Shown here in pieces: positions 4,263 to 43,449 of a stretch of DNA of 64,000 bases. The position numbers and the translations under genes were made by a program. A model generated the notes under the pieces. It saw only the letters and a list, made by a program, of their open reading frames with translations. It did not search any database and was not told the DNA's origin. The stretch spans positions 186,001 through 250,000 of the forward strand of contig NZ_JABENB010000002.1 of assembly GCF_013002715.1 (NCBI RefSeq). Reading direction: 5' to 3'. This DNA comes from Flexivirga aerilata (lineage in GTDB: Bacteria; Actinomycetota; Actinomycetes; Actinomycetales; Dermatophilaceae). Positions within the stretch are counted from its first letter, which is position 1. Each line of letters opens with the position of its first letter.

Positions 4263-6035
4263 TCAGTCCGTGATCTCGGCGAGGACCGCGCCGGCGGAGA
4301 CGGTTTCGCCGACCTTGGCGGTCAGGCCGCTGATCGTGCCGGCCTTGTGTGCGGTGATGGGCTGTTCCATCTTCATCGCCTCGAGTACCACGACGGTTTC
4401 ACCGGCCTCGACGGTCTGGCCGTCCTGCGCCACGAGTTTCACGATCGTGCCCTGCATGGGTGCGGTGAGGGAGTTGCCCGACGCGGCGGCGCCGCTACCG
4501 CCGGAGCGGGTGCGCTTGGGTGCCTTCTTGCGGGCCGGGCCGGCGCCGCCGCCACCGCCGAGTTGCAGGTCGCCGGGCAGGGAGACGTCGAGGCGTTTGC
4601 CGCCGACCTCGACCACGATGGTCTGCCGGGGCGTCTGCTCGGTGTTGGCGGAGGGGGTGCCGGCATACGGCTCGATCTGGTTGTCGAACTCGGTCTCGAT
4701 CCACCGGGTGTGCACGCTGAACGGCGTCTCGTCGTCGGTCGCGAATGCCGGGTCGGCGACGACCGCGCGGTGGAAGGGCAGCACGGTCGGCATGCCCTCG
4801 ACGACCATCTCGGCGAGCGCGCGGCGGGAGCGCTCGATCGCTTCGGCGCGGTTGCGGCCGGTGACGATGAGCTTGGCGAGCATCGAGTCGAAGGCGCCGC
4901 CGATGACGTCTCCGGAGACGACGCCGGAGTCGACGCGGACACCCGGGCCGCCGGGTGCTTTGAAGACCTCGACGGTGCCGGGCGCGGGCAGGAAGTTTCG
5001 GCCGGCGTCCTCGCCGTTGATGCGGAATTCGAAGGAGTGCGCGTGCGGCTCGGGGTCGGGGTAGCCCAGCTGTTCGCCCTGGGCGATGCGGAACTGTTCG
5101 CGCACCAGGTCGATGCCGGTGACCTCTTCGGAGACCGGGTGCTCGACCTGCAGACGGGTGTTGACCTCGAGGAAGCTGATCGCGCCGTCTTGCCCGATCA
5201 GGAACTCGCAGGTGCCGGCACCGACGTAGCCGGCCTCGGCGAGGATCGCCTTGGAGGCGCGCACCAGCTCGGCGTGCTGTGCTTCGGACAGGTATGGCGC
5301 AGGCGCCTCCTCGACCAGCTTCTGGTTGCGGCGCTGCAGCGAGCAGTCGCGGGTCGAGACCACGACCACGTTGCCGTGCTCGTCGGCCAGGCACTGCGTC
5401 TCGACGTGCCGCGGCTTGTCGAGGAAGCGCTCCACGAAGCACTCGCCGCGACCGAAGGCGGTGACCGCCTCGCGGACCGCGGAGTCGAACAGCTCGGGGA
5501 TCTCCTCGATCGTGCGGGCGACCTTCAGGCCGCGGCCGCCTCCGCCATAGGCGGCCTTGATCGCGACCGGCAGGCCGTGCTCCTTGGCGAAGGCCACGAC
5601 CTCGTCGGCGTCGGCGACCGGGTCCTTGGTGCCGGGCACGAGCGGGGCGCCGGCCTTGGTGGCGATGTGGCGGGCCTTGACCTTGTCGCCGAGGGAGTCG
5701 ATGGCCTGCGGCGGCGGGCCGATCCAGGTCAGCCCGGCGTCGATCACGGCCTGTGCGAACTCGGCGTTCTCGGAGAGGAAGCCATAGCCCGGGTGCACCG
5801 CGTCCGCGCCCGAATCCTGAGCAACCGCAAGCAGTTTCTCCTGCACGAGGTAGGAGTCGCCGGGCGTCGAACCGCCGAGGGAGTAGGCCTCGTCGGCGGC
5901 TGTGACGTGGACGGCGTCGCGGTCCGGGTCGGCATAGACGGCGACCGAACCGATACCGGCGTCCGCGCACGCGCGCGCGACACGGACGGCGATCTCGCCA
6001 CGGTTGGCGATCAGTACCTTGTGCAGTTGCGGCAT
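4263..6035 (-). CDS. accA: acyl-CoA carboxylase alpha chain (biotin carboxylase + biotin carboxyl carrier)
   Basis: A 590-aa AccA3/BccA-type subunit. The N-terminal biotin carboxylase (about 1-450) uses ATP to carboxylate biotin with bicarbonate. It opens with [21 protein letters not shown] and contains the glycine-rich ATP-grasp loop [10 protein letters not shown], and [13 protein letters not shown] and [15 protein letters not shown] Gly/Ala/Lys linker leads to a C-terminal biotinyl domain whose EAMKM motif puts the biotinylated lysine at residue 555. The start is set at the ATG whose product begins [13 protein letters not shown], the usual N-terminus; upstream in-frame codons would run into the promoter of the divergent aldo/keto reductase. 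Its partners are probably AccD5/AccE (35.5-37.4 kb) and perhaps the carboxyltransferase at 14.9 kb. The ligase domain at 37.5 kb should biotinylate it. Confidence 0.96.
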
Positions 6036-25695: not shown

Positions 25696-26011
25696 GCGTG
25701 CAGAAGTCGCGACGGTTGCGCCGTACGCACGCGGGGCCGGCGTATGGCGTGCAGAAGTCGCGACGCTTGCGCCGTACGCACGCGGGATCGGCGTGTGGCG
25801 TGCAGAAGTCGCGACGGTCGCGGGGTGTGCACGCGGGATCGGCGTGAGGCGTGCAGAAGTCGCGACGGTCGCGGGTTACGCACGCGAGGCCGGGGCGGGA
25901 TCGGCGTATGCCGTGCAGAAGTCGCGACGGTTGCGCCGTACGCACGCGGGGCCGGTGTATGGCGTGCAGAAGTCGCGACGGTCGCGCCGTCGGTCGCGGG
26001 TTGCGCACGCG
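25696..26011. repeat. 51-bp repeat array 1 (six copies)
   Basis: Six copies of a ~37-bp core of the type GCGTGC-AGAAGTCGCGACGG...GCACGC. GTGCAG begins at 25698, 25749, 25800, 25851, 25913 and 25964, so spacing is 51, 51, 51, 62 and 51. The 14-bp gaps vary little (GGCCGGCGTATG-like). Each core has a 6-7-bp closing stem GCGTGC(A)/(T)GCACGC with the palindrome TCGCGA inside. The last copy carries an internal partial duplication. The array occupies the gap between maf and the MFS gene; the ~100 bp between the MFS start and the array hold nothing recognised. Because 51 is a multiple of three, the array is open in several frames, but I see no coding signal. Confidence 0.9.
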
Positions 26012-34203: not shown

Positions 34204-35220
34204 ATGGCGGGTGACAACTTCGACCTCGACCCGAGCTTCACGGTGCTGCTGCGTGATCTCGGCATACGTCCTGCGCAGGTGCTGCGGCGGGCAGGACTGC
34301 CCGGGGACACCTTCGCTCGGCAGCCGGCCGAGCTGAGCGTCGCCGACTACTACCGCTTCTGGGCGGCGATCGAGGCCGAGGGCGGGTCCGGTGGCTCGGG
34401 TGACGGGGTCGGCGGCGGGGCCGACGACCTCGCGGTCGCCATCGGCGAGGCGATCTCGGTGGAGCACTTCTCGCCGCCGATCTTCGCCGCGATGTGCAGT
34501 CCGGATCTGCGCAGTGCGGCCGGTCGCCTCGCCCGCTACAAGCCGCTGATCGGGCCCGTGCGGCTCGAGGTCGACGCAGGCAGCGAGCTGACTATCGGCT
34601 ACCGCTGGCCCGCGGGGCAGACTCCGCCCGCGCTTCTCGCCAGTGCCGAACTCGTCTTCTGGGTCGCCCTCGCCCGGATTGCGACCCGCGAGCAGGTGCG
34701 TGCCGCACGGGTCACCATGCCTGAGCCGCCCGCAAACCCCGCGGCCCTGGAGCGCTACCTCGGCTGCCGGGTGCGCGCCGGCAGCACCTACTCGGTGGCC
34801 TTCGCAGCGGCCGACGCGGTGCGCCCGTTCCTCACCGAGAACGACGCCATGTGGCGGATCTTCCGCCCCGACCTGCGTCGCCGGCTCGCCGACCTGCAGG
34901 CGAACGCAACCACCGCCGAACGGGTGCGCGCCGCGCTGGTCGAGACGTTGCCGGCCGGTGACGCCTCGATCGACGCCGTCACCGGACAACTCGCGGTCAG
35001 CTCACGCACCCTGCAGCGCGCGCTGCACCAGGAGGGCACGTCGTTCAAGGCCGTGCTCGCCAGCACCCGGGAGAACCTCGCGCGGCATTACCTGACGCGT
35101 GACGACCTGCGCACCGCCGAGATCGCCTTCCTGCTCGGCTACAACGACACCACCTCGTTCTACCGCGCCTTCAAGACCTGGACCGGCGTCACACCGGACA
35201 CTGCGCGCCAGGGCCGGTAG
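34204..35220 (+). CDS. AraC-family transcriptional regulator
   Basis: A 338-aa regulator. The N-terminal ~190 residues match the arabinose-binding-like domain of OruR/ArgR-type AraC proteins (VLLRDLGIRPAQVLRRAGLP at the start, then LSVADYYRFWAAIE). The C-terminal ~95 residues carry the double HTH: SIDAVTGQLAVSSRTLQRAL with HQEGTSFKAVL, then AEIAFLLGYNDTTSFYRAFK. A Gly/Ser insert near residue 60-75 is not typical. It probably activates the divergent alcohol dehydrogenase in response to an alcohol or aldehyde. Repeat array 2 begins 9 bp after its stop. Confidence 0.92.
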   Translation: MAGDNFDLDPSFTVLLRDLGIRPAQVLRRAGLPGDTFARQPAELSVADYYRFWAAIEAEGGSGGSGDGVGGGADDLAVAIGEAISVEHFSPPIFAAMCSPDLRSAAGRLARYKPLIGPVRLEVDAGSELTIGYRWPAGQTPPALLASAELVFWVALARIATREQVRAARVTMPEPPANPAALERYLGCRVRAGSTYSVAFAAADAVRPFLTENDAMWRIFRPDLRRRLADLQANATTAERVRAALVETLPAGDASIDAVTGQLAVSSRTLQRALHQEGTSFKAVLASTRENLARHYLTRDDLRTAEIAFLLGYNDTTSFYRAFKTWTGVTPDTARQGR

Positions 35221-35228
35221 CGGCGGGG

Positions 35229-35470
35229 GCGTGCAGAAGTCGCGACGGTTGCGGGGTGTGCGCGCGATTCGGGGCGGGGGCGTGCAGAAGTCGCGACGGT
35301 TGCGGGGTGTGTGCGCGGATCGGGGCGGGGGCGTGCAGAAGTCGCGACGGTTGCGGGGTGCGCACGCGGATCGGGGCGGGGGCGTGCAGAAGTCGCGACG
35401 GTCGCGGGGTGCGCACGCGGATCGGGGCGGGGGCGTGCAGAAGTCGCGACGGTTGCGGGGTGTGCACGCG
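35229..35470. repeat. 51-bp repeat array 2 (five copies, exact period)
   Basis: Five copies of the same core as array 1, with GTGCAG at 35231, 35282, 35333, 35384 and 35435, exactly 51 bp apart. The 14-15-bp gaps are almost constant here (ATCGGGGCGGGG-like), so this is the most homogeneous of the three arrays. It lies between the AraC gene and the convergent accE. Confidence 0.9.
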
Positions 35471-35495: not shown

Positions 35496-35731
35496 TCAGC
35501 GCGGCAGCGCCGGAGACCGCCAGCCGGTGCGCGCGCGGCCGGTCCAGGCCGATCCGCGGGATGGCTCCGGTGCCTCGTCGCCGCCACCGACCGCGGAGAG
35601 CACGGCGACGACGGCCGCGATCTCCGCGGCCGTCGCGTTGCCCGAAAGCACCTGCAGCTGAGGCGTTTTCGCCGCTTCGGCTGCCGCCTCGGATGTCGTG
35701 TCGGGAGCCGACTCGGGCGTCTGCTGGTCGC

Positions 35732-35735
<4 letters not shown>
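35496..35735 (-). CDS. accE: acyl-CoA carboxylase epsilon subunit
   Basis: A 79-aa AccE. After a variable Glu/Ala/Thr-rich N-terminus comes the family core [20 protein letters not shown] and a C-terminal tail with [14 protein letters not shown], whose tryptophans and arginines are typical. Epsilon subunits bind AccD5 and raise holoenzyme activity. The start overlaps the accD stop by 4 bp, so it is translated with accD5. Confidence 0.92.
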
Positions 35736-37372
<1,637 letters not shown>

Positions 37373-37481
37373 GACGACTCACAGTAGTGCGGGCTCCGCG
37401 AGCACAGTGAGGGCGGTCACGTACTGATCGGTTCGGTGCTGTGACCGGAGTCTCCGGGTGCGCGGACTAATCTTCTATGGC

Positions 37482-39287
37482 GTGAGCCACTTCCTCGACC
37501 GCGCCGAGATGAACGACCGGCTGGCGGACACCCCGTGGGAAGATCTCGACGTGACCCCGCAGATCGGCTCCACCAACGCCGAGCTGCTCGCCGACCCGCA
37601 CCCGTGGCGGGCGCTGGTCACCGACAACCAGACCGCCGGCCGGGGCCGGCTCGATCGCGCCTGGGTCGCCGAGCCCGGTCAGTCGATCGCGCTGTCCGCG
37701 ACCCTGCCGCTGCCGGACGACGCGACCCGCTGGGGGTGGGTGCCGCTGCTCGTCGGGGTCGCCGTGCGCCGTGCGCTGCGTGAGGTCGCGCCGCTCGACG
37801 TGGGCCTGAAGTGGCCCAACGACGTGCTGGCGCGGCCCGACGCCGACACCGACTGGGGCAAGATCGCCGGCATCCTGTGCAATGCGACCGGCGGCGCCGC
37901 GCCGACCGTCGTCGTCGGCATCGGCATCAACGTGCACCAGGAGCCGGGCGACCTGCCGGTCGACACCGCGACCTCGGTGCGCATCTGCGGGGCCGACGTG
38001 CGCTGCGAGGACCTGGTGGTCGCACTGCTGCGACAACTCGCCGACATACAACGGCAGTGGGACCTGCCGACGCTGGACGACGCCTACCGGGCCGCCTGCC
38101 TGACGATCGGCCAGGAGGTGCGCATCGAGCTGGCCGGGGACGAGGTCGCCTCCGGCCGGGCGATCGACGTCGACGTCATGGGCCGGCTGGTCATCGAGAC
38201 CGCGGACGGCCCGGTGCCCCATGCCGCGGGCGACGTCGTGCACGTGCGCCCGAGCGGGCCGGCCACCCGCCCGCTCGCCGGGCCGCACGACCGCGCCGCC
38301 TTCGTCGACGGGCTGGAGGAGCGGCTGGTCGGCGAGCCCCGCACCCTGCGCCGCGCGGAGGTCGCCGACGCCGCGGGCGTCACCACCGACGACACGCGGA
38401 AGCTCTGGCGCGCTCTCGGCTTCGCCAACGCCCGCGACGACGACGTGGTGTTCACCGCGAGCGACGTGGAGGCGCTGCGCTCGGTGGTGGCGACCATCCG
38501 CGACGGCGAACTCGACGAGACCACCGCGCTCGGGCTGGCCCGCGCGGTCGGCCGGTCCACCGACCGGCTGGCGATGTGGTCGCTGCAGCTGATCACCGAC
38601 ATGGTCAGCGGCGGCCAGGGCCTCGGCGTCGACAGTCACATCGCGCAACTGGCCGCCGAGCGTGCCGTCGAGCTGTCCGACCAGATGGGCCCCCTCATCG
38701 ACTACGTATGGCGGCGCAACCTCGCCGTCGCGATCTCGCGCATGATCGCCGACTCCGAGCCGGAGTCGCACGTCGGCGTCATCCGGACGATCGGATTCGC
38801 CGACCTGGTCAACTTCACCCAGCTCGTCCGTCAGCTCAGTGAGCGCGAACTCGCAACGCTGGTGCTGCGATTCGAGTCGCTCGCCTCCGACGTGGTGAGC
38901 GCGCACGGTGGCGCCATCGTCAAGACGGTCGGCGACGAGGTGCTCTTCTCGCACACCACCGTCGAGGGCGCGATCGCGATCGCGTTCGACCTGCTCGACC
39001 AGGCCGCGGCCGACGACCTCATCCCGAGGATGCGCGTCGGTGTCGCGACCGGCCGTGTGCTGGCCCGTCTCGGCGACGTCTACGGCAACACCGTCAACCG
39101 GGCGAGCCGGCTGACCGCGGCCGCGGATCCCGGCACGGTGCTGGCGGATTCGGACGTCGCGGCCGCGCTCGCCGACAACGACGACGTGCGCACGATCGCC
39201 CGGGAAGCCATCCAGTTGCCCGGCATCGGACAGATCACGCCATGGGTGCTGTCCCGGCGTGGGGGAGAACTACTATCGCCACCATGA
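37482..39287 (+). CDS. birA: biotin protein ligase fused to class III adenylate cyclase
   Basis: One 601-aa ORF with three parts. Residues 1-257 are a complete group I biotin ligase (no HTH): biotinyl-AMP loop GRGRLDR 53-59, KWPND 110-114, GKIAGIL 126-132, and a C-terminal SH3-like domain ending GDVVHVRP. Residues about 280-430 resemble the autoinhibitory regulatory domain of pH-sensing mycobacterial cyclase Rv1264. Residues about 432-600 are a class III cyclase with the full catalytic set: metal Asp441 and Asp485, adenine-selecting Lys481 and Asp532, Asn539 and Arg543. The junction has no stop, and I find no good separate start or ribosome-binding site for the cyclase. In related genomes these are, to my knowledge, usually two adjacent genes. 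The start is the GTG at 37482; GTG 37458 is possible. The stop overlaps the response regulator by ATGA. Confidence 0.9.
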   Translation: MSHFLDRAEMNDRLADTPWEDLDVTPQIGSTNAELLADPHPWRALVTDNQTAGRGRLDRAWVAEPGQSIALSATLPLPDDATRWGWVPLLVGVAVRRALREVAPLDVGLKWPNDVLARPDADTDWGKIAGILCNATGGAAPTVVVGIGINVHQEPGDLPVDTATSVRICGADVRCEDLVVALLRQLADIQRQWDLPTLDDAYRAACLTIGQEVRIELAGDEVASGRAIDVDVMGRLVIETADGPVPHAAGDVVHVRPSGPATRPLAGPHDRAAFVDGLEERLVGEPRTLRRAEVADAAGVTTDDTRKLWRALGFANARDDDVVFTASDVEALRSVVATIRDGELDETTALGLARAVGRSTDRLAMWSLQLITDMVSGGQGLGVDSHIAQLAAERAVELSDQMGPLIDYVWRRNLAVAISRMIADSEPESHVGVIRTIGFADLVNFTQLVRQLSERELATLVLRFESLASDVVSAHGGAIVKTVGDEVLFSHTTVEGAIAIAFDLLDQAAADDLIPRMRVGVATGRVLARLGDVYGNTVNRASRLTAAADPGTVLADSDVAAALADNDDVRTIAREAIQLPGIGQITPWVLSRRGGELLSPP

Positions 39288-39964
39288 CGAGCGTGCTGCT
39301 GGCCGAGGACGATCCGGCGATCTCCGAGCCCCTCGCCCGTGCCTTACGCCGCGAGGGCTACCAGGTCGACGTCCGCGAGGACGGCGTCGCCGCGCTGGAC
39401 GGGGCGCAGAGCGGCCCTGACCTGGTCATCCTCGACCTCGGACTGCCGGCCCTCGATGGCCTCGAGGTGTGCCGTCGGCTGCGGTCCTCCGGCAGCTCGG
39501 TCCCGGTGCTGATCCTCACCGCCCGCGCCGACGAGGTCGACACCGTGGTCGGTCTCGACGCCGGCGCCGACGACTACGTCACGAAGCCGTTCCGTCTTGC
39601 CGAGCTGCTCGCCCGGGCGCGGGCGCTGCTGCGCCGTACCCCGCCCGACGAGGTGGTCACCACCCCGCTAGTGCGGCTCGACGCCGAAGCACGCCGCGCG
39701 TTCCTCGGCGACAACGAAATCCAGCTCACCGCAAAGGAATTCGAGCTGCTGCGAGTGCTGGTGCGCGAGCAGGGCAAGGTGGTCTCGCGCGAGCAGCTGA
39801 TGCACGAGATCTGGGACACCGCCTGGCTCGGCTCGACCAAGACCCTGGACATGCACGTGTCGGTGCTGCGCCGCAAGCTCGGCGACGACGCCACCCGGCC
39901 GCGCTTCATCACCACGGTCCGCGGGGTCGGCTTCCGCTTCGAGTCCGCCGGCGGGGCGGACTGA
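39284..39964 (+). CDS. OmpR-family response regulator
   Basis: A 226-aa regulator with a receiver domain (residues 1-120: acidic pair EDD 8-10, phosphoacceptor Asp in ILDLGLP near 51, Lys in YVTKPF). The winged-helix DNA-binding domain has EIQLTAKEFELLRVL, LGSTKTLDMHVSVLRRKL, and ends FITTVRGVGFRF. The ATG overlaps the stop of the biotin-ligase/cyclase gene by 4 bp, so expression is coupled to it. The next gene, 4 bp on, is the cognate kinase. The regulon is unknown. Confidence 0.95.
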   Translation: MTSVLLAEDDPAISEPLARALRREGYQVDVREDGVAALDGAQSGPDLVILDLGLPALDGLEVCRRLRSSGSSVPVLILTARADEVDTVVGLDAGADDYVTKPFRLAELLARARALLRRTPPDEVVTTPLVRLDAEARRAFLGDNEIQLTAKEFELLRVLVREQGKVVSREQLMHEIWDTAWLGSTKTLDMHVSVLRRKLGDDATRPRFITTVRGVGFRFESAGGAD

Positions 39965-39968
39965 TCCG

Positions 39969-40994
39969 TTGCGCGGCCGACTGGTCCGGACCGGCTGGCG
40001 GATCGCGCTGCCGGCGATGCTGCTGGTGGTGGTGCCCGCGCTACTGCTCGTCCCGGGCTGGTGGCAGCGGGCGGTGATCGTCGCCTGCGCGGTCGCCGCA
40101 GGTGTGCTCGTATGGCGGGTCAGTCTCGCCGAGGCAGCGGCGACCGCCGCCCCGGTCGAGGAGCTCACCCGCCGCGCCGAGCGGGTCGAGGACGGCCCGG
40201 TCATCTTCGAGCCGCTGCGCAGCGGCATCGACGAGATCGACCGCATCTCACAGGTTTTCGAGGGGCGCGCCGCCGAGCTGACCCGCACGCTCGCTGCCGA
40301 ACGCGAGTTTGCCTCCGACGCCAGTCACCAACTGCGCACCCCGCTGACCGCGCTGCTGATCCGGCTCGACGAGATCTCGATGAGCGAGGAGATCGCCGAG
40401 GTGCACGGCGAGGCGATGGTCGCCATCGACCAGGTCGAGCGGCTCACCGGCGTGGTCGACAAGCTGCTGCAACGCGCACGGGAGACCCCGGGCGGCGGGC
40501 CGCTGCCGACCATCTCGCTGGACTCGGTGATCGCCGAGCTGCAACGCGAGTGGCAGCCGTCCTTCGCCTCGGCCCGGCGCAGCGTGAAGGTGAGCGGCGA
40601 GCGCGGCCTGCAGGTGATCTCCACCCGCAGCGGGCTGTTGCAGATCCTCGCCACGCTCCTGGAGAACACCCTGCACCACGGGGACGGCACGGTCGAGGTG
40701 ATGGCTCGCCGCAACGGGCCGTCGGTGGTGGTCGAGGTCAGCGACGCCGGCAAGGGTGTCGACCCGTCGCTCGCGCCGCACATCTTCAAGCGGCGGGTGA
40801 GCACGGGCGGCACCGGCCTCGGGCTGGCGCTGGCCCGCGACCTGGCGCAGGCCAACGGCGGGCGGCTGGAGCTGCGCAGCTCGCAGCCCGCGGTGTTCGC
40901 GCTCTTCCTCTCCGAGGGGACGCCGGTGCGCTCGACCCTGCCCGACCGGCCCGCGACGAGCGCGGAGCTGGGGGCGCCGGGTCAGGCGGAGTGA
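39969..40994 (+). CDS. sensor histidine kinase
   Basis: A 341-aa kinase. Two N-terminal spans at about 10-30 and 33-52 are separated by only a few residues, so it has almost no extracellular sensor domain and may sense membrane state or a partner. A HAMP-like stretch precedes the H-box ASDASHQLRTPLTALL (His near 119). The ATPase domain has the N-box LENTLHHGDG, DAGKGVDP, and TGLGLALARDLAQANGG. TTG is the only suitable start (39969). It pairs with the response regulator and converges with GtrA, overlapping by 13 bp. Confidence 0.93.
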   Translation: MRGRLVRTGWRIALPAMLLVVVPALLLVPGWWQRAVIVACAVAAGVLVWRVSLAEAAATAAPVEELTRRAERVEDGPVIFEPLRSGIDEIDRISQVFEGRAAELTRTLAAEREFASDASHQLRTPLTALLIRLDEISMSEEIAEVHGEAMVAIDQVERLTGVVDKLLQRARETPGGGPLPTISLDSVIAELQREWQPSFASARRSVKVSGERGLQVISTRSGLLQILATLLENTLHHGDGTVEVMARRNGPSVVVEVSDAGKGVDPSLAPHIFKRRVSTGGTGLGLALARDLAQANGGRLELRSSQPAVFALFLSEGTPVRSTLPDRPATSAELGAPGQAE

Positions 40995-42749: not shown

Positions 42750-43246
42750 CCGCAGTGGGCATCGTGATGGGCAGCGACTCCGACTGGCCGGTGATGAGCG
42801 CGGCCGCCGAGGCGCTGGACGAGTTCGAGGTGTCCTACGAGGCCGACGTCGTGTCGGCGCACCGGATGCCCGCCGAGATGATCGCGTATGGCGAGCAGGC
42901 CGCGGGCCGCGGGCTGCGGGTGATCATCGCCGGCGCCGGGGGAGCGGCGCACCTGCCCGGCATGCTCGCGTCGGTGACCACGCTGCCGGTGATCGGGGTG
43001 CCGGTGCCACTGAAGTATCTCGACGGGATGGACTCGCTGCTGTCGATCGTCCAGATGCCCGCCGGCGTGCCGGTCGCGACCGTCTCGATCGGCGGTGCCC
43101 GCAACGCCGGGCTGCTCGCCGTCCGGATGCTCGCTGCCGCCGGTGACGCGGAAGGCGAACGCCTCACCGCCGCGATGCGCGACTTCCAGACCGCGCTGCG
43201 CGATCAGGCGCACGCCAAGGGGGCGAAGCTGCGCGAGCAGCTCTAG
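42746..43246 (+). CDS. purE: N5-carboxyaminoimidazole ribonucleotide mutase
   Basis: A 166-aa PurE class I mutase that turns N5-CAIR into [14 protein letters not shown] near 8-17, SAHRMP with the catalytic His, [15 protein letters not shown], and GVPV follow the family exactly. It is coupled to purK by a 4-bp overlap. Repeat array 3 begins 12 bp after its stop. Confidence 0.97.
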
Positions 43247-43257
43247 CTCGCGCCGGG

Positions 43258-43449
43258 GCGTGCAGAAGTCGCGACGGTCGCGGGGTACGCACGCGAAAGT
43301 GGCCTGGGGGCGTGCAGAAGTCGCGACGGTTGCGCCGTGCGCACGCGAAGTGGCGCGGGGGCGTGTAGAAGTCGCGACGGTTGCGGCGTGTGCACGCGAA
43401 ACGTGCTGGTCGCGTGCACAAGTCGCGACGGTCGCGCCGTACGCACGCG
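43258..43449. repeat. 51-bp repeat array 3 (four copies)
   Basis: Four copies of the 37-bp core with GTGCAG-type starts at 43260, 43312, 43363 and 43414 (52, 51, 51). The third has GTGTAG and the fourth GTGCAC, so this array is the most degenerate. It lies between the convergent purE and UDP-sugar dehydrogenase genes. Confidence 0.88.

Follow-up and report, generated by a model that had tools for sequence, protein, structure and literature searches.

The window analysed here, a stretch of 64,000 nucleotides of Flexivirga aerilata DNA, carries a single open reading frame (37482..39287, +) of 601 codons, which runs from a GTG at 37482 to a TGA at 39285-39287 and encodes a biotin protein ligase (BPL), a linker, a regulatory domain and a class III adenylate cyclase, in this order. 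Another in-frame GTG lies upstream at 37458; we favour 37482 as the start because several relatives begin with MSH(F/Y)LD. The ligase module (37482..38252, +; residues 1-257) is followed by a linker (38253..38282, +; residues 258-267) that varies in length among relatives and has a block mean pLDDT of 57, by a helical Rv1264-like regulatory domain (38283..38765, +; about residues 268-428), recognised by phmmer, Foldseek and a sub-threshold Pfam match, and by the cyclase catalytic domain (38766..39260, +; about residues 429-593). Three Pfam domains exceeded their cut-offs on the 601-aa protein: BPL_LplA_LipB (35-150), BPL_C (208-254) and Guanylate_cyc (436-591). Among PDB entries, phmmer gave the best matches to the M. 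tuberculosis biotin ligase, over residues 5-256 (E 5.5e-36), and to Rv1264 (1y10), over residues 281-567 (E 1.4e-19). The original prediction of a complete ligase, an Rv1264-like domain and a cyclase with all six catalytic residues in one frame, with no stop across the junction, is borne out: the residues lie where they had been placed, the domains are matched by Pfam and phmmer, and the frame is uninterrupted from 37482 to 39287.

A protein-level search for the full architecture, as had been proposed, was run against a database of 5.8 billion proteins. It returned 388 relatives among 7993 scored candidates, and the best 120 of the 388 were examined. Among these, the fusion was found in 48 further proteins (P0003-P0051 without P0020, which is a fragment of the window's own protein); together with the window's protein they form the 49 fusion rows used below, a few of them N-terminally incomplete. 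These data bear on the possibility, named beforehand as a refuter, that a sequencing or assembly error masks a stop or a frameshift. The DNA is rich in GC, and two apparent chimeras from the same search, P0102 and P0111, do look like frameshift artefacts, but 13 genomes of 7 genera share the open frame, and distinct database proteins with identities down to 52-53% have the same architecture. An error of this kind is therefore ruled out, and we assign it next to no probability.

The ligase half

The N-terminal half contains GRGRLDR starting at residue 53 (GRGR 53-56) and KWPND at residue 110 (110-114). It scored 109.7 bits with TIGR00121 birA_ligase against a curated cut-off of 83.1, and 38.4 and 38.5 bits with PF03099 and PF02237, respectively, against 21. 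Conservation of the motifs is nearly complete: K110 of KWPND is kept in 49/49 fusion rows, R54, G55 and R56 are each found in 46/46 non-gap rows, and position 53 is Gly in 45 of 46. The N-terminal helix-turn-helix domain of bifunctional BirA is absent according to the structure model and the profile search, the ligase fold starting at residue 1. Model residues 1-261 align to E. coli BirA (2ewn) from 2ewn residue 63 onwards, and the match to NF008848 (112.9 bits, cut-off 362) also starts at profile position 63.

TIGR00121 has a single match in each of the 13 fused genomes, namely the fused ligase itself; the other PF03099 match in the window's genome is a lipoate ligase. The N-terminal half would thus be the cell's biotin protein ligase, loading biotin onto acyl-CoA carboxylases. 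The genome has eight biotin/lipoyl domain matches, one of which lies inside the window at about 4272-4472 (-).

The cyclase half and its regulatory domain

The cyclase half scored 52.7 bits with PF00211, against a cut-off of 21.9. Its six catalytic residues, that is two metal-binding Asp, the substrate-binding Lys and Asp, and the transition-state Asn and Arg (D441, K481, D485, D532, N539 and R543), are present in all 49 fusion rows. The split relatives compared (P0052-P0121 except P0102 and P0111) number 68; all of them have five of these residues, and 67 have D532. The original prediction had also suggested that the bicarbonate state could be tied to cAMP synthesis. Bicarbonate-stimulated class IIIb cyclases carry a Thr at the substrate-specifying position. 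This link appears weak, because the corresponding residue 532 is Asp, not Thr, in 49/49 fusion rows. Rv1264-type cyclases belong to class IIIc.

For the regulatory domain, Ad_Cy_reg (PF16701) matched residues 280-410 with 20.2 bits, which is under the cut-off of 28.6, and the precomputed domain list has PF16701 in two fused relatives, P0022 and P0047. Foldseek aligned the model to 1y11 over 347 columns with a TM (target) of 0.68. The assignment rests on Foldseek and phmmer, since the VIA-align structure rows are mostly limited to residues 1-259.

The AlphaFold2 single-chain model of the fusion (mean pLDDT 92.2, pTM 0.61) consists of two confident modules with a weak linker between them, and places the ligase directly ahead of the regulatory domain's first helix. 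In the 49 fusion rows, 12-45 aa (median 17) lie between residues 257 and 274, with many Ala, Pro, Asp and Arg residues among them. Such a short linker, variable among relatives and modelled with low confidence, points to tethering rather than to a rigid allosteric joint. The fusion would set a 1:1 ratio of the two halves, with the ligase just ahead of the first regulatory-domain helix and dimerisation presumably occurring through the cyclase half.

Genomic neighbourhood

As had been predicted, the fusion faces accD/accE. The acyl-CoA carboxylase carboxyltransferase subunit gene accD/pccB (35732..37372, -; Pfam Carboxyl_trans, 681.6 bits) and the epsilon subunit gene accE (35496..35735, -; ACC_epsilon, 41.9 bits against 25) are divergent to it, with 109 bp in between. 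On the 3' side, an OmpR-type response regulator gene (39284..39964, +) follows, whose ATG at 39284 overlaps the fusion stop (39285-39287) as ATGA, in agreement with the earlier reading; its partner histidine kinase (39969..40994, +; Pfam), gtrA (-), purK and purE come next. In a set of 20 context loci (L153-L172), accD is divergent to the ligase-cyclase pair in 15, and L166 has a weaker match in that place; in the other four (L154, L155, L156 and L167) no accD was found next to the pair, two of these loci, L155 and L156, starting at a contig end. The search for accE covered the window. A response regulator also lies 3' of the cyclase in the context loci, in some with an intervening enoyl-CoA hydratase gene. 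Such a hydratase-like gene occupies the interval between cyclase and regulator in L164 (9363-10142, +; the locus covered by the Pfam scan) and in L162 (9250-10029, +), one of these genomes being split and the other fused; it is absent from the window, where the regulator directly overlaps the fusion.

Between accD and the fusion, a GTGA-N6-TCAC sequence is found at 37407-37420, which we take to be a CRP-like core. Exact copies were detected upstream in 5 of 93 loci, namely in 4 of 13 fused loci (two of them near-identical) and in 1 of 80 split loci, with a search span of 350 nt (3.3 kb for the single split locus matched). Shuffled controls gave a mean of 0.5 loci and the cyclase coding sequence none. 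The positions differ among the fused loci (5, 46, 75 and 75 nt). Since the motif was picked after viewing the sequence, a possible CRP feedback on the fusion gene is only a hint.

A 51-nt direct repeat around GTGCAGAAGTCGCGACGGTTGCG additionally forms arrays in the window, at 25698-25986, 35213-35470 and 43245-43449, with 15 matches at no more than 3 mismatches where 0 are expected. Genome-wide, an exact 19-nt core of this repeat has 86 copies (59 on the + and 27 on the - strand), which tend to keep to one strand over long distances: those on contig C1 all lie on the - strand up to 741 kb and, with one exception, on the + strand from 1.06 Mb on, as if the repeat were oriented along chromosome arms.

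One product or two

The original prediction had found no good internal start or ribosome-binding site at the junction, and this holds for the genome under study: none of the three in-frame junction GTG codons of the window's gene is preceded by a Shine-Dalgarno-like word of at least 4 bases. This speaks against two products arising instead of, or in addition to, the single chain through internal initiation or linker cleavage. Across the 13 fused loci, however, 13 of 53 junction start codons have such a word; the background over the rest of these genes is 81 of 514. At residue 245, inside BPL_C, the codon is a GTG in 9 of the 13 fused loci and is preceded by a Shine-Dalgarno-like word in five of these nine, among them the near relative G027, although not in the window's genome; in the remaining 4 of 13 loci, position 245 has no start codon. 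Moreover, one database entry for this locus, P0020 (369 aa), starts at residue 233, a Met kept in 21 of 49 fusions. A product from residue 233 or 245 would nevertheless start within the ligase's C-terminal domain, and we regard a two-product outcome as quite improbable. The single chain with two enzymes predicted to work is well supported, although both activities are deduced from sequence.

Distribution

Among the matches listed, the fusion is named in Flexivirga, Rudaeicoccus, Leekyejoonella, Calidifontibacter, Allobranchiibius and Yimella, while entries from Luteipulveratus, Demetria and Dermacoccus are cyclases of 333-353 aa lacking a ligase; the NCBI family of all nine genera is Dermacoccaceae. 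For a census, 99 genomes of the window's family were used, leaving out G029, G047, G080, G085 (which had no match) and G086. Of the resulting 94 loci, 13 are fused, 80 are split with the ligase upstream, adjacent and on the same strand, and one is a cyclase at a contig end. Full-length stop-free matches among those listed came from G000, G010 and G059 in an order-wide sample (396) and from G000 in a class-wide sample (246). Thirty loci outside the family, which are the best matches of the order- and class-wide searches and thus top-scoring rather than random, comprise 24 with a separate ligase upstream on the same strand and none with a fusion; the other six have the cyclase only, and in three of them the contig ends within about 0.7 kb upstream. 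A birA-cyclase pair is also present in Kineosporia mesophila, G484 and G680, with spacings of 320 to 1007 nt. Separate neighbouring genes are hence the usual arrangement, as had been supposed, both in the family (80/94 loci) and in other actinomycete families (24/30).

Two candidates for further fusions were dropped: both P0111, in which the cyclase would be joined to an enoyl-CoA hydratase, and P0102 run into apparently out-of-frame stretches and have the look of frameshift artefacts. In the open full-text literature, whose coverage leaves aside most subscription journals, no paper was found that describes a BPL-cyclase fusion or pair in its title or abstract, and the fusion apparently represents a new architecture as far as the literature could be searched.

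Origin and selection

In a tree of BPL plus cyclase, which was built by a quick method from 91 of 93 loci (G056 and G060 were dropped for short matches), the 13 fused rows form one clade with an SH-aLRT of 99. A tree of rpoB plus rpoC (20 genomes, 12 fused, 2475 columns) likewise unites the fused genomes in one clade (support 100/100), sister to split genera. In contrast, the purK/purE/accD tree (21 rows, 12 fused; some rows had only part of accD or none, and G019 entered without it) places the fused rows in two groups, corresponding to two label changes; a branch uniting three fused and four split rows has a support of 82/94, and a topology with one change occurred in only 2% of 200 bootstrap trees. 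We prefer a single origin, as the longer rpoB+rpoC alignment and the BPL+cyclase tree both give one fused clade; it is the more likely history on these trees, though not proven.

Of eight split relatives inspected, five have a 4-nt overlap (ATGA or GTGA) between the stop of the ligase gene and a possible start of the cyclase gene. Because the overlapping genes lie in different frames, the fusion probably needed a frame change in addition to the loss of the stop. Most likely, an ancient, translationally coupled birA-cya pair lost its intervening stop and came into one frame once, in the ancestor of the seven sampled Dermacoccaceae-type genera, and the fusion was then kept in the sampled descendants. 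Overall, we consider it quite probable that the gene encodes one bifunctional protein that derives from an old birA-cya operon pair and was fused most likely once.

Both halves of the fusion are under purifying selection. Among six fused pairs, dN/dS was 0.07-0.34 for the ligase, 0.06-0.27 for the regulatory part and 0.04-0.25 for the cyclase, values that are rough as several dS are near or above 0.7. Ten split pairs gave 0.17-0.42 for the ligase and 0-0.16 for the cyclase, so the fusion did not tighten the constraint on the cyclase.

Proposed consequences: tethering or biotin-gated cAMP synthesis

The fusion might have been neutral, in that an overlapping, co-transcribed pair lost its stop and gained equal dosage only, with no cross-talk between the enzymes. 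Adjacent overlapping genes in sister genomes would ease such an accident, the linker is variable and of low model confidence, and the domains resemble an ordinary stand-alone BPL and an Rv1264-type cyclase. On the other hand, the pair stays adjacent far beyond the fused clade, and the fusion is retained in all 13 sampled genomes of that clade in the BPL+cyclase tree, even if neither observation in itself amounts to cross-talk. We give neutral fusion close to an even chance.

Where two proteins are fused in one lineage and encoded by neighbouring genes in others, they are often functional partners. Fusion here and adjacency elsewhere thus point to a link of protein biotinylation, and hence acyl-CoA carboxylation, with cAMP signalling. 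A control of cAMP synthesis by the state of the ligase (biotin-, biotinyl-AMP- or apo-carboxylase-bound) is plausible from gene order, fusion and retention. In such a biotin-gated cyclase, the ligase would sense biotin supply or apo-carboxylase and relay this through the regulatory domain to the cyclase, whose cAMP would presumably be read by a CRP-type receptor. By analogy, the cyclase could stand to the ligase as the DNA-binding domain does in bifunctional BirA, with a second messenger as the output. Several observations are consistent with gating: the model puts the ligase immediately in front of the regulatory domain's first helix, accD is divergent to the pair in 15 of the 20 context loci, each fused genome has one ligase match, and a CRP relative is encoded in the genome. 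This CRP/Fnr-family protein matches 3i54 (E 2.1e-74) and 3r6s (E 6.1e-73), presumably M. tuberculosis CRP and C. glutamicum GlxR. The proximity of cya (SCO4928) to pccB (SCO4926) in S. coelicolor, as given in PMC7674942 and PMC10302056, points in the same direction. Against gating stand the flexible linker, the split state with which most relatives manage, and the fact that the genome encodes two more class III cyclase domains, both in open frames of more than 1000 aa. With these, the cell has other possible sources of cAMP, and the fusion need not set the cellular cAMP level. Tethering with equal dosage, at nearly even chances, is the safest view, and ligase-gated cAMP a bold one that we hold to be rather unlikely.

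The two extra cyclase domains are located in neighbouring long frames (G000:C2:118263-121839), in one of which an ATPase-like region follows, and a match to a cNMP-binding domain lies nearby (C2:117737-117967, -).

If gating holds true, acyl-CoA carboxylase status would be broadcast to CRP-controlled genes via cAMP, and other actinomycetes that encode birA and cya separately, among them Streptomyces, would run the same circuit with two proteins. The arrangement hints that fat-building metabolism has an old connection to cell signalling, apparently one not described so far. The fusion further offers a concrete candidate input for Streptomyces Cya, as well as a single purifiable protein.

Comparison with known systems

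The class I BPL BirA of M. tuberculosis (PDB 3rux, 4op0) is about 40% identical to the fusion over the whole ligase fold, shares its motifs and also has no DNA-binding domain; however, it stands alone, whereas the ligase of the fusion continues into a regulatory domain and a cyclase. Its gene, too, presumably adjoins an accD. Bifunctional BirA of the E. coli type likewise joins a ligase to a signalling output domain, but there the output is an N-terminal DNA-binding domain and here a C-terminal cyclase. Fusion of a biotin ligase with a different enzyme has a precedent in the type III pantothenate kinase fusion (NCBIfam NF009862, by its model name), whose partner is a kinase of CoA synthesis rather than a cyclase; over the ligase part of our protein, this model scored 46.4 bits where its cut-off is 761. 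Rv1264-type class III cyclases (PDB 1y10, 1y11) resemble the fusion in their helical regulatory and catalytic domains and in the six aligned catalytic residues, yet Rv1264, with a length of 407, has no ligase ahead of the regulatory domain.

By gene order, S. coelicolor Cya (SCO4928) is probably the split counterpart of the fusion, its locus tag being two from pccB (SCO4926; PMC5311964, PMC10302056). As SCO4926 is pccB and SCO4928 is cya, and as the genome G484, taken as Streptomyces-like, has the order accD, birA, cyclase, SCO4927 is probably the biotin ligase. Deletion of SCO4928, which is also named in PMC6585502, abolished antibiotic production according to PMC7674942. In contrast to the cyclase fused to its ligase here, Cya of S. 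coelicolor is encoded by a separate gene.
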